A stretch of 39,156 nucleotides of DNA from Actinomycetales bacterium (lineage in GTDB: Bacteria; Actinomycetota; Actinomycetes; Actinomycetales; Actinomycetaceae): contig JADGOQ010000080.1 of assembly GCA_017882885.1 (NCBI GenBank), forward strand, positions 1-39,156. The letters run 5' to 3'. The position numbers and the translations under genes were made by a program. Below the pieces are notes generated by a model. The model was not told where the DNA came from and ran no database searches. It saw nothing but the letters and a program-made list of their open reading frames with translations. This document shows positions 2,953-25,377 of the stretch, piece after piece (the stretch's first letter is position 1; every line of letters begins with the position of its first letter).

Positions 2953-3079
2953 TGGCAACCGATACGCCCGCGAAGTTGCCAACGACGTTGTATCGCCAGT
3001 TGGTGGAATCGCTCTCCGGACTGAGCGGAATGGCGCCGAGAGGCGATACGCAGCGGCGACGTTGTATCGCCAGGTGGTG
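2953..3079 (+). repeat. Dispersed palindromic element, copy A
   Basis: Begins with TGGCAACCGATACG (2953-2966), 8 bases, then GTTGCCA (975-981 of that kilobase). A first hairpin pairs CGATAC (2960-2965) with GTATCG (2990-2995). A second pairs GGCGATAC (3042-3049) with GTATCGCC (3064-3071). Aligned by eye with the reverse complement of copy B it shares the ends, both hairpins and a middle block (GGAAT..CT..CCGGACTG, then TGGCGCCGA). The rest of the 2803-3212 gap shows no gene. Confidence 0.75.
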
Positions 3080-3212
3080 AGTCCCGGGGAGGTGGAACCG
3101 GTGAGTCCCGGGAGGTGGGTCCTCCCTGTCCACACAATGCCTAGCGGGCCCGTGTCCACACCCCTTCCGCCACGCGAGCGGGGTCGGGTCAGTTCCCAGC
3201 GAGAGTTTGCGC

Positions 3213-4133
3213 ATGCGGCCCGCCTCTCCCCTGCCGAAAAGGCTCGTCACCCTCGGTGTCTTCACCCTCAAGGAGGCGATCGAAGAGGGCGCCCACCCGG
3301 AGCGGCTACGTCGGACGGACGTCATCCGCCTCGGCCAGGGCATCTATGCGATGAACGGCGTGGAGCATGACGATTTCACCATCGCGAAGGCCGTGTGCCG
3401 CTCCCTCCCCGACACATGGGCCTCCCACTGCACGGGCGGGATCGCGCGAGGGCTCACGCTCCCCCAGTCGCTGAAGCTCCAGTTGCCGGAGGTCTCCCGG
3501 CAGCGTCCCGCGAACCTCCCTCGGACGAGCATCGTTCGTGGTCACCGGGCATGCGTCCGGTTGGGAGAGGTGACCCGAATCGACAATATCCCCGTGTCCA
3601 CCCCGGCAAGGGTGTGGCTCGAACTCGCATCGTCGCTCACCATCTTCGAGCTCGTCGAGTTCGGCGACCACCTCGTGAGGCTCCCTCGCCAGACCTTCGA
3701 GGGCCGGACGGAACCCCACGCGACGATCACTCAACTACGGCAGGTCCTGTCATGGCACGGTCGGATGGCAGGAGCGGAGAAGGCACATGCGGCGCTCGGG
3801 TTGATCCGCGTGGGCGCCGACTCGATCAAGGAGACGCACCTGCGCCTCGCGATGGTCGAGGCCGGCCTCCCTGAACCCGAACTGCAGCTCAAGCTGGATC
3901 CGAACGATCCGCATTCCCCGGTCGCTGACCTGGGATACCGCGAGCCTCGCATCGCCATCGACTACGACGGCGAAACCCATTTGACGCCAGAGCAGCAATC
4001 CCGTGACATCCAGCGTGATCGTCGCTTCACGATGGCCGGTTGGCGCCACATCACCGTCAATCGGCACGATGCGGCCGAGGGCTTTCGAACCGTGATCGGG
4101 GATGTTCGGCGCCTCCTGAGCGGCGGTATGTGA
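3213..4133 (+). CDS. AbiEi-antitoxin-domain / DUF559 (Vsr-like) nuclease-fold protein
   Basis: 306-residue cytosolic protein of a type common in actinobacteria. The N-terminal part (about 8-45, RLVTLGVFTLKEAIEEG then IRLGQGIYAMNG) resembles the winged-helix antitoxin domain of AbiEi proteins. The C-terminal 90 residues carry a DUF559-like, very-short-patch-repair nuclease fold: VADLGYREPRIAIDYDGETH (candidate PD-(D/E)XK core with D, then D-x-D-G and H), followed by RDRRFTMAGWRHITVN. No AbiEii toxin gene adjoins it, so a two-gene toxin-antitoxin role is not supported. I prefer the ATG at 3213 (GAGAG 7 nt upstream) over the in-frame TTG at 3207. The gene is bracketed by inverted repeat elements and uses slightly less GC-biased codons than its neighbours, both consistent with transfer. 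The biochemical role is unproven. Confidence 0.75.
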   Translation: MRPASPLPKRLVTLGVFTLKEAIEEGAHPERLRRTDVIRLGQGIYAMNGVEHDDFTIAKAVCRSLPDTWASHCTGGIARGLTLPQSLKLQLPEVSRQRPANLPRTSIVRGHRACVRLGEVTRIDNIPVSTPARVWLELASSLTIFELVEFGDHLVRLPRQTFEGRTEPHATITQLRQVLSWHGRMAGAEKAHAALGLIRVGADSIKETHLRLAMVEAGLPEPELQLKLDPNDPHSPVADLGYREPRIAIDYDGETHLTPEQQSRDIQRDRRFTMAGWRHITVNRHDAAEGFRTVIGDVRRLLSGGM

Positions 4134-4148
4134 GAGACCCGGGGGATA

Positions 4149-4288
4149 CCAATTGGCGATACACCAGTTGGCGATACAGCCACCGGGTGGTGTATCGCCA
4201 ATCGGCGCCACTCTCGTCCAGTCCGGGCAGAATTCCAACGACGCGCGAGACGACCTCTGTGGCAACCTGGTGAGCGTATCGGTTGCCA
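4149..4288 (-). repeat. Dispersed palindromic element, copy B
   Basis: Read on the minus strand it starts TGGCAACCGATACG (4288-4275), then GGTTGCCA, as in copy A. On the plus strand its other end holds two tandem 15-bp units, CCAATTGGCGATACA (4149-4163) and CCAGTTGGCGATACA (4164-4178), followed by an inverted unit TGTATCGCCAATCGG (4191-4205). GGCGATACA/TGTATCGCC form a 9-bp stem extended by CCA/TGG. It fills most of the 206-base gap before putA and could end transcription from either side. Confidence 0.75.
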
Positions 4289-8620: not shown

Positions 8621-8983
8621 TCAGGCGGACAGGCCGAGTCGCTTCATCAACGCCGGGATGTCGCGCTGGAGGGTGACCCACATGAGGTCGTGGTTGACCT
8701 TGTCGTACTGGTGGGCGACCAGGTTCCGCATCCGGGTGATGTCGACCCACTCGATGTTGTGGTGGTCCGATTTGAAATCCTCGGGAAACCGCTCCACAAC
8801 CGTCGCCACCTTGATGAGCAGGCGCTCGCCGGCGTTCCGCAGCAGCCGGCCCTGCGCGGTGTCGGCCAGATAGGCATCGCGTCCCAAGGCGACCAGGTAG
8901 TCGGCGTCTCGGCCGAACCCGGCCAGATCATCGAGCCAGTCGCGGAGTCGGCTCTCGGGGACCGGGTGCTCCGAGGGCGTCAC
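8621..8983 (-). CDS. hepT: HepT-like HEPN toxin (DUF86)
   Basis: 120-residue HEPN-fold ribonuclease toxin of the MNT-HEPN type. The RX4HXY active-site motif is intact as RNLVAHQY (about residues 85-92); in characterised HepT proteins the Arg and His cleave RNA and the Tyr is the residue AMPylated by the partner. The helical context (LLRNAGERLLIKVATVVERF) fits the family, as does the length. The start overlaps the end of the antitoxin gene (8980-8983), so the toxin is translated after, and coupled to, its neutraliser. Substrate RNA is unknown. The intact motif suggests an active toxin. Confidence 0.88.
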   Translation of the reverse strand: MTPSEHPVPESRLRDWLDDLAGFGRDADYLVALGRDAYLADTAQGRLLRNAGERLLIKVATVVERFPEDFKSDHHNIEWVDITRMRNLVAHQYDKVNHDLMWVTLQRDIPALMKRLGLSA

Positions 8984-9432
8984 AGTGGCACCGCCTCGCG
9001 AATGGCCCGGTCGATGACCGGTCCGGTCGAACCGGCTGACACAACATCAACCCGAACCGTCAAGAGCTCAGTGAGTTCGTCCTCCATGGCCAGCAGGTCG
9101 GTGATCCCGGCGTCCTCGGGGAATGAGACCAGCAGGTCGACGTCGGAGTCCGGACCATCCGTACCCCGCGCCACCGAACCGAACACTCGCGGTGCGCTCC
9201 CGTGGTGCCGCGCGACGATCTCCAGCGCTTGCCCGCGCATCTCCCGTAGCACCTGGGACGGCCGGACCACCAGCACCCGGTCCAGCGCCGTCCGGGTTGC
9301 GGCGCTGGGCTGACGCCTGCCGGATTCGATCGCCGAAATCAGCGGCTGCTTCACACCCGAGCGCGCCGCCAACTCACGCTGCGAGAGGTGAAGCGCCTCC
9401 CGACGTGCCCTGACCTGGCTCGCGTACGTCAC
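8980..9432 (-). CDS. mntA: HTH-fused minimal nucleotidyltransferase antitoxin (MntA-like)
   Basis: 150-residue antitoxin that would AMPylate the HepT tyrosine. Residues 1-60 are an Xre/Cro helix-turn-helix (LSQRELAARSGVKQPLISAI). Residues about 75-150 are the nucleotidyltransferase with the GSX10DXD motif: GSVARG, then SDVDLLV carrying both aspartates. The HTH fusion means one protein neutralises the toxin and can bind its own promoter. I prefer the GTG at 9432 over the GTG at 9438: a -10-like TATCAT lies exactly 6 nt upstream of 9432 with a 17-nt spacer to TTGGCT, giving a leaderless mRNA, and no Shine-Dalgarno serves either start. The family is known; the autoregulation is inference. Confidence 0.88.
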   Translation of the reverse strand: MTYASQVRARREALHLSQRELAARSGVKQPLISAIESGRRQPSAATRTALDRVLVVRPSQVLREMRGQALEIVARHHGSAPRVFGSVARGTDGPDSDVDLLVSFPEDAGITDLLAMEDELTELLTVRVDVVSAGSTGPVIDRAIREAVPL

Positions 9433-9438
9433 ACCCAC

Positions 9439-9502: not shown

Positions 9503-9636
9503 TGGCAACCGATACAGTCCGGGCCGGCTCGCCCCGGCTGTATCGCTTGATGGCCTCAATTGGGGCCGATTGGGCGCTCGAAGCCGCAATAACTCGCAAT
9601 TGGCGATACACCCGCCGGGGGGCGTATCGGTTGCCA
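9503..9636. repeat. Dispersed palindromic element, copy C, with complete terminal inverted repeats
   Basis: 134-bp element beginning TGGCAACCGATAC (9503-9515) and ending GTATCGGTTGCCA (9624-9636), a perfect 13-bp inverted repeat. Hairpin 1: CGATACAG (9510-9517) with CTGTATCG (9538-9545), extended by CCGGG/CCCGG. Hairpin 2: CGATAC (9604-9609) with GTATCG (9624-9629), with GC-rich arms inside. About 58 bp lie between the hairpins. An extra TGGCAAC (9492-9498) and GGTTGC (9639-9644) sit just outside the ends. It starts 12 bp beyond the EF-G2 stop and may act as its terminator. Confidence 0.85.
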
Positions 9637-18864: not shown

Positions 18865-19803
18865 TCAGCTCTTGACCTTGGGCATCTTCACCTTGGTCTC
18901 GCCGGAGATGGTCGCCCACGGCAGGGTGTCGGGGAGGTAGCTCTCGAACTCCTCGATGAGGTCCTTCTGGTAGTCGCCCGCGAAGGTCCCGTCGAGGAAC
19001 TTCCCGAGGGCCTCGTCCTTGAAACGCGCCCAGGAGGCCTTCTCGTGGCCCGGGTTGATCGGGTAGTAGAGGCAGCCGGCGGTGTAGGACGCGTCGCGGT
19101 CGCCGGGGGCGTCGCCGATGAGGAGGATGTGGTTCTCCGGGTACTTGCCGTTGGCGGCGTACTGCACGTGCTGCGCCTTCGAGCCCATCTCCTGGCCGGC
19201 GATCACCTGCATGTAGTCGGCGAGGCCATGCTCGTTCCACTCCTTCTCCAGCGCGTGGAGCGGGGTGGCGGAGACGGTCATCTCGTCCACGTCGGGGTGC
19301 ATGGCCTGCATGGCCTCACGCACGCCGGGGAACGGGCCGCAGCCGTGCACCATGTCGGCGATCATGGCGTTCACGCCGTTGCCCCAGCGGATGGCGCGGT
19401 CGATCGTCTCCGACGGGTGGGCCACCGCGAAGGCGGCGATGCCCTTGTCGGAGAGCGGGAAGTCGGAGTCGATGAACTCGGTGAGTTCCGGGTAATCCGG
19501 GATGGTGACGCCGCGCTCGGCCACTTCCACGCGGTCGCGGAGGAGGTCGAGGAGCTGACGCAGCGCGAGCCAGCGGTTCAGTCCGCGCGTGATCGAGTGC
19601 AGGTTGACGAAGAGCGCGGTCTCGCGGGCGAGCGTCGAGATCGGCTGGAGGTCCCAGTACTTGATGTAGGACGGGGTGAAGCACTCGTAGTGCTTGATGT
19701 CCATCGCGTCCATCGCACAGCCGTCTGAATCGATACCGGCGAAGAAATCCTTGGTGGGCGTGAAATCGACGAGCACTTGCGCGGCAGCGGGCATGTCAGC
19801 CAT
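18865..19803 (-). CDS. HAD-superfamily hydrolase
   Basis: 312-residue cytosolic protein. HAD motif I is GIDSDGCAMD near residue 24 (DxDGC in place of the usual DxDGT), and motif IV is LIGDAPGDRDAS near residue 238. The helical insertion between them (about 45-190) is a large cap, suggesting a small phosphorylated substrate, possibly a sugar or polyol phosphate. Codon use is strongly biased and less extreme in Arg codons than neighbours, suggesting high expression, as for the KdgK-like gene at 24037. Start ATG 19803 has AAGGAG 9 nt upstream. An in-frame ATG at 19893 also has AAAGGAG at good spacing and would add 30 residues. Confidence 0.75.
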   Translation of the reverse strand: MADMPAAAQVLVDFTPTKDFFAGIDSDGCAMDAMDIKHYECFTPSYIKYWDLQPISTLARETALFVNLHSITRGLNRWLALRQLLDLLRDRVEVAERGVTIPDYPELTEFIDSDFPLSDKGIAAFAVAHPSETIDRAIRWGNGVNAMIADMVHGCGPFPGVREAMQAMHPDVDEMTVSATPLHALEKEWNEHGLADYMQVIAGQEMGSKAQHVQYAANGKYPENHILLIGDAPGDRDASYTAGCLYYPINPGHEKASWARFKDEALGKFLDGTFAGDYQKDLIEEFESYLPDTLPWATISGETKVKMPKVKS

Positions 19804-20044
19804 TGAGTCTGTCTCCTTGCGTATCGAGCTGGTCGGTATCGGGATGATCTGTGTCGAGGTGGTCCTGAAGGGCATGGCGGTCAGGGCGACCATGTAGTGC
19901 GCTCCTTTGCGTGGCTCCACGCCAAGCCAACTGCACTCTCGGGGTTGCGGCAATCGGTTTCCACGAGTTTCCAGCATCACGGCGGCGGAGCCGGGCAGAA
20001 ATGTGAGGCTTCGTAGTGCCTGTGCAAAGGCCGCACAATGCAAC

Positions 20045-25250: not shown

Positions 25251-25298
25251 TGGCAACCGATACGCTCCAGCAGTTGCCATCGGGTGTTGTATACCAAG
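25251..25298 (+). repeat. Dispersed palindromic element, copy D (left end)
   Basis: TGGCAACCGATACG (25251-25264), 8 bases, GTTGCCA (25273-25279), then TTGTATACCAAG, which aligns with the TTGTATCGCCAG of copy A at the same spacing. The right part of the element is diverged or replaced by the 20-bp palindrome at 25332-25377. GCGCGCGGCCCC occurs twice in the flank (near 25214 and 25231). Confidence 0.7.
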
Positions 25299-25331
25299 CC
25301 GTCGCCATTCGCCGAGGGGTGACTGGGACAG

Positions 25332-25377
25332 CGACGGGAAGATATACACGGCTTCGTCCGTGTATATCTTCCCGTCG
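25332..25377. repeat. Perfect 20-bp palindrome with 6-nt loop
   Basis: CGACGGGAAGATATACACGG (25332-25351) and its exact reverse complement (25358-25377), loop CTTCGT. It is AT-rich against its surroundings. It lies 222 bases after the KdgK-like stop and 54 bases before the MarR start. No T-tract follows, so it is not an ordinary terminator; it could replace the second hairpin of copy D. Confidence 0.9.

Follow-up and report, generated by a model that had tools for sequence, protein, structure and literature searches.

What holds a single nuclease-like gene between two inverted copies of a palindromic repeat, with more copies of the repeat lying elsewhere in the same DNA? The question arises from a 39,156-nt stretch of DNA (the window, by which we mean the whole stretch analyzed). 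The preliminary description of the locus offered two answers: a 1.3-kb cassette mobilized in trans, or a nuclease that itself recognizes the palindromes, as RAYT proteins do for REP elements. RAYTs are REP-associated tyrosine transposases, HUH enzymes of the IS200/IS605 type. The results below favor the second proposal and argue against the first. The reading we prefer, with a probability of roughly 0.6, is a two-part system of enzyme and palindrome that works like REP/RAYT with a non-homologous nuclease. The pattern recurs in many actinobacteria and points toward a counterpart of REP/RAYT, as yet undescribed, with an unrelated enzyme. In a literature search that covered mainly open-access papers, none was found to tie DUF559, Vsr or AbiEi proteins to dispersed palindromes.

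The repeat element and its nuclease gene

The nuclease gene (3213-4133, + strand) encodes 306 aa and lies between copy A of the element (2953-3079, +) and copy B (4146-4288, -), which is inverted with respect to copy A. The same end had been described in opposite orientation around this one gene, and it is exact: TGGCAACCGATAC is found at 2953-2965 (+) and 4276-4288 (-). Both ends read TGGCAACCGATACG, then 8 nt, then GTTGCCA. The outer arms (2953-3009 and 4232-4288) are 77% complementary over 57 nt. The inner arms (3028-3079 and 4162-4213) are 73% complementary over 52 nt; thus, the interiors of the two copies also align, as proposed. Local alignment of the flanks of the nuclease gene gave a score of 51, whereas 1000 dinucleotide shuffles averaged 11.7 and reached 22.6 at most. 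Among the ORFs between copies A and B we saw no transposase, in agreement with the preliminary description.

When aligned with copies from two other genomes (G001 and G002), the element is approximately 110-130 bp long. It consists of an end hairpin, TGGCAAC..GTTGCCA (2953-2981 in copy A), followed by hairpins made of GTATCGCCA and GGCGATAC words. The end is invariant and the interior diverged among copies, with the caveat that the first 13 bases of the end were the search pattern. Away from the nuclease gene, exact copies of TGGCAACCGATAC occur in the window at 9503 (+), 9624-9636 (-) and 25251 (+). The first two cap copy C (9503-9636), a gene-less copy of 134 bp with the end inverted at both of its termini. 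The third opens copy D (25251-25377, +), which is also gene-less, starts with the end hairpin and finishes in a perfect hairpin with 20-bp arms (25332-25377). At up to two mismatches, the end has five matches in the window versus 0.41 expected. A search of the whole assembly (2.5 Mb, 203 contigs) for elements with this end, as had been suggested, returned nine exact copies, and the reversed control returned none. The word GTATCGC occurs eight times in the window, every time within element copies; GTATCG words at 19731-19836 bear no resemblance to the element.

Other repeats and genes lie near these copies. Short tandem repeats with 49-nt and 15-nt periods (1684-1791 and 2400-2451), in or near coding sequence, are unrelated to the element. 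Beside copy C, at 8624-9438 (-), a gene for a HepT-like ribonuclease (PF01934) is adjacent to an HTH/nucleotidyltransferase gene, and this pair is a HEPN/MNT-type toxin-antitoxin. At another locus (G000:C63, from 1509 onwards), a copy of the window element continues into a tandem array in which TGTATCGCAAGGCGG is repeated four to five times, as though words of the element multiplied there.

The conserved start of the nuclease gene is probably ATG 3213 and not the alternative TTG 3207. The protein matches REase_MTES_1575, DUF559 and AbiEi_4 in Pfam, all under the curated cut-offs. A sequence search of solved structures returned only 3hrl (E 0.12), and a PHROGs search gave nothing of note. An AlphaFold model of the protein, built from 50 homologues, has a mean pLDDT of 92.6. 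When compared by VIA-align, residues 5-201 of the model resemble the AbiEi antitoxin 6y8q (Z 11.1), and residues 204-308 resemble both the EDxHD homing-endonuclease domain of I-Bth0305I (3r3p, Z 11.5) and Vsr (1cw0, Z 9.8). Foldseek matches to the model were weak (best E 3e-3), and PADLOC AbiEi models match the N-terminal part. The predicted fold confirms an AbiEi-antitoxin-like domain joined to a Vsr/EDxHD-type nuclease. E209, D241, H258 and D267 (numbering from 3207) are invariant across 50 sequences and, in our reading of the alignment, are probably the residues of the EDxHD motif; their invariance suggests that the protein is an active nuclease. The neighboring genes encode an acyltransferase, a 112-aa protein without a Pfam match and a proline dehydrogenase/aldehyde dehydrogenase. 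An AbiE toxin-antitoxin pair was ruled out, since no AbiEii (DUF1814) toxin gene adjoins the nuclease gene.

Palindromes and cognate genes across genomes

We collected 80 homologous loci from named genomes, mainly Micrococcaceae. Matching inverted repeats stand on both flanks of 59/77 homologues, versus 1/771 of the other ORFs at the same loci. The effect is present in 19/23 synteny groups, although independent loci are slightly fewer than 23 because one group (L116/L117) is the inverted form of another group's locus. In a separate set from other families of the order, flanking repeats were found at approximately 34 of approximately 48 homologues. About a fifth of homologues have no flanking pair, e.g., one Nesterenkonia locus group. 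Family members occur in 28/119 genomes sampled across the phylum, with up to 12 per genome.

The sequence of the palindrome varies by locus. In two Arthrobacter subfamilies, T1 and T2, it is 56 bp (CGATTGCTCCGTA..TACGGAGCAATCG) and 65 bp (GCAACGCGGGGTCACTTA..TAAGTGACCCCGCGTTGC), respectively, and in genome G016 it is about 71 bp (CGATTGTGGTCAGTT..AACTGACCACAATCG). Other loci have tandem ACGCTCTCTCACTT units or further palindrome types. At one locus (L034, G054:C21) the homologue lies between near-identical inverted repeats of more than 200 bp, possibly a recent event. Some T1/T2 palindromes of Arthrobacter-type genomes (L128, L240, L250) have another dispersed repeat, CTCGCAAGCTCGGCCAGGGAACCCTG..., attached to one arm or in its place.

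The palindromes are also dispersed. The palindrome end of G016 was found at 15 places, mostly away from a nuclease gene. Palindrome and protein of T1 and of T2 were surveyed in the same 37 genomes. The T1 palindrome is present in all 22 genomes with a T1 gene and absent from 13 of the 15 without; the T2 palindrome is present in 9/9 genomes with the gene, and none was found in 24/28 without it (Fisher p 3e-8 for T1 and 6e-6 for T2, with shared descent ignored). Several genomes have the T1 pair without the T2 pair or the reverse, which ties each repeat to its paralogue and not to the genome as a whole. The preliminary description had named two patterns that would speak against its own proposal, both repeats at this locus in relatives that lack the gene and no correlation across genomes. 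Neither was found; repeats and genes are correlated.

The exceptions are repeats without a detectable gene. For T1 these are G080 (eight matches) and G081 (one match), for T2 they are G073, G067, G076 and G082, and for the window type G001, an incomplete assembly. We interpret repeats without a cognate gene as the expected result of gene loss. A hidden cognate gene was ruled out for a palindrome pair of G073 with copies 1.5 kb apart, as tblastn found no family gene between them. In G003 the repeat lies on one side of the nuclease gene only and nowhere else, so dispersal is not seen in this genome. The T1 gene is intact in 21 genomes and split in one. In the latter (G083:C29:20919-21652), it is broken into two reading frames that overlap (68% and 76% identity) and is likely a pseudogene; the genome retains seven T1 matches.

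Protein and palindrome appear to change together. Neighbors in the protein tree that come from different loci and genera have common motifs. The palindromes of one group of proteins, which spans several families, have (C)GTGATCATG in common, and a TCACTT-like core is found across T2 and related types. A Mantel test over 46 representatives gave a correlation that is significant although weak (rho -0.09, P 0.018), with the signal at short protein distance. The arms of the palindromes covary in 58 cells for T1 (shuffle maximum 39) and in 68 for T2 (shuffle maximum 42), values that are inflated by the shared descent of copies. Since the arms of T1 and T2 change together above the shuffles, symmetry is kept as the sequence drifts. 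This co-evolution strongly supports recognition of the cognate palindrome by the protein, and we regard direct binding as very probable. The RAYT-like recognition proposed earlier is well supported on comparative grounds, by flank specificity, co-occurrence, motifs that follow the clade and conserved putative nuclease residues.

Mobility, inheritance and other explanations

The strongest competing explanation gives the palindromes a regulatory or structural role, as binding sites that are not mobile. The AbiEi-like domain would autoregulate at the flanking pair and occupy the dispersed sites for gene regulation, nucleoid organization or self-marking, and the nuclease would serve defense or repair. 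Antitoxins of the AbiEi family bind their own promoters at inverted repeats (PMC7319586), the N-terminal part of the protein is matched by the PADLOC AbiEi models, and many copies are at the same place between species; six testable copies of G078 have an orthologous copy in its sister genome G079. However, copies stand on both sides of the gene and not at the promoter alone. Gene-less copies follow stop codons, at a median distance of 11 nt for T1 and 9 nt for T2, and do not lie upstream of starts, which are further away (mechanical ORFs). Two gene-less T2 copies of G078, directly after stop codons, are empty sites in G079; in this occupancy comparison the left flank of the G079 copy C22:329081 had no match. 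Such presence or absence of single copies in sister species, together with paralogue-specific copy number, looks like replication of an element. We consider the binding-site explanation unlikely. A T2 half-site was also observed in G078 beside a different hairpin, outside the canonical palindrome (L251, G078:C3:262678).

The gene and its two repeats could instead be an ordinary autonomous TIR transposon, with the nuclease as transposase and the gene-less copies as its MITEs. The terminal inverted arrangement fits, as do the MITE-like inverted ends of the 134-bp copy C and the state of the window locus in relatives. In G002 the orientation of gene and repeats is that of the window, and the gene of G003 lies inverted between the neighbors it has in the window. 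In G001 both gene and repeats are missing, as is the 112-aa gene, and the neighbors nearly abut; this is the empty site lacking the whole unit that the preliminary description had proposed to look for. Two further inversions between conserved neighbors were found (L116/L117 versus L096 and others; L144 versus L103/L105). Inversions at a fixed locus would be expected from recombination between the flanking inverted repeats, which counts against the transposon. Each flank is also itself a complete palindrome, and we found no target-site duplication at T1/T2 copies, where direct repeats are not in excess over shuffled pairings. Moreover, the nuclease gene is usually single per subfamily, and the T1 gene is at one locus in 27 genomes; thus, the gene is mostly inherited vertically. 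A TIR transposon is improbable on these grounds. That the nuclease gene is not evidently mobile itself also weighs against our own mobile-system reading. The same holds for the lack of target-site duplications and of any insertion caught in progress, for the homologues without a flanking pair, for the genomes that have repeats but no detectable cognate gene, and for the one-sided repeat of G003.

Still less probable is that the palindromes are intergenic structures such as transcription terminators, linked to the gene by chance or only indirectly. The strong hairpins that immediately follow stop codons speak for this, but the both-side pairing with one gene family and the paralogue-specific co-occurrence would be left unexplained. 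A passenger cassette mobilized in trans by a transposase encoded elsewhere suits a unit without a visible transposase gene, but we reject this earlier proposal, because the genes inside such pairs, at many loci with unrelated palindromes, are of this protein family and of no other type, and one subfamily keeps its locus across those 27 genomes.

In the two-part enzyme-palindrome system that we prefer, the AbiEi-like winged-helix part would recognize the cognate palindrome, with the protein probably acting as a dimer and its target spanning about 55-70 bp. The dimer is proposed from I-Bth0305I, which dimerizes over a site of nearly 60 bp (PMC3943268). The Vsr/EDxHD-type domain would then nick or cut at the palindrome; cleavage by this domain we infer. 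Cleavage would keep the flanking pair and spread short copies in trans, and we hold it somewhat probable that the spread of copies is driven in this way. The nuclease gene would mostly keep its locus, enclosed by two inverted copies. The gene-less palindromes would be short non-autonomous copies, spread mostly to sites just 3' of genes, with selection keeping their hairpin symmetry.

This reading gives a candidate function to the large group of DUF559/MTES_1575-type proteins known by name only and accounts for the dispersed palindrome families of Arthrobacter and relatives. It suggests that a lifestyle of palindrome plus dedicated nuclease arose with a second, unrelated enzyme, and so offers an independent replicate for the question of what maintains REP/RAYT systems in genomes. 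The paralogue-specific motifs allow DNA recognition to be tested directly by swaps.

Comparison with known systems

Short gene-less copies with inverted ends are common to this system and to the MITEs of DDE insertion sequences, but no DDE transposase family was found in the unit, and no target-site duplication at its copies. Empty sites in relatives, i.e., that of the unit in G001 and those of the two T2 copies in G079, are a feature it has in common with autonomous TIR transposons. AbiEi antitoxins belong to type IV toxin-antitoxin systems, Rv2827c included. The predicted fold of residues 5-201 and the PADLOC matches are like theirs, whereas the C-terminal nuclease and the lack of an adjacent AbiEii toxin gene are not. 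With I-Bth0305I and Vsr the protein has in common a predicted nuclease fold and the E-D-H-D residue pattern, and the target of I-Bth0305I is similar in size to the palindromes. Unlike in these enzymes, the DNA-binding part is AbiEi-like, the gene is not in an intron or phage, and it is linked to dispersed palindromes and not to one homing site.

The closest comparison is with REP/RAYT. The enzyme differs: it is of the AbiEi plus Vsr/EDxHD type, the H-hydrophobic-H (HUH) motif is absent from the window protein, and a Pfam search with E values up to 10 finds no Y1_Tnp in it. At 56-71 bp or more, the palindromes are longer than those of REP/RAYT, and their copy number is lower, about 2-60 matches per genome. 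There is no GTAG- or CGTC-type tag at the palindrome foot or in the flanks; T1 elements begin CGATTG and T2 elements GCAACG. The hosts belong to the Actinomycetota; the RAYTs that qualified in the survey of Nunvar et al. came from gammaproteobacteria only (PMC2817692). As both the defining enzyme and the tag differ, we class the system as a non-homologous variant and not as a member of REP/RAYT. REP/RAYT systems have a nuclease gene between two inverted palindromes and more palindromes dispersed between genes; enzyme and repeat are paired by class, the palindromes show compensatory changes and inheritance is mostly vertical (PMC2817692; PMC3116915). All of this has its like here: inverted flanking palindromes in the window and at the 59 homologues, cognate palindromes dispersed in intergenic DNA (G003 excepted), class-specific pairing, compensatory arm changes and mostly vertical inheritance. 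It is tempting, if still tentative, to see in the large actinobacterial AbiEi-Vsr family a new class of intragenomic replicator, with several paralogues per genome that would each keep and spread their own hairpin palindromes, convergent with REPIN-RAYT through a different enzyme and cleavage chemistry.
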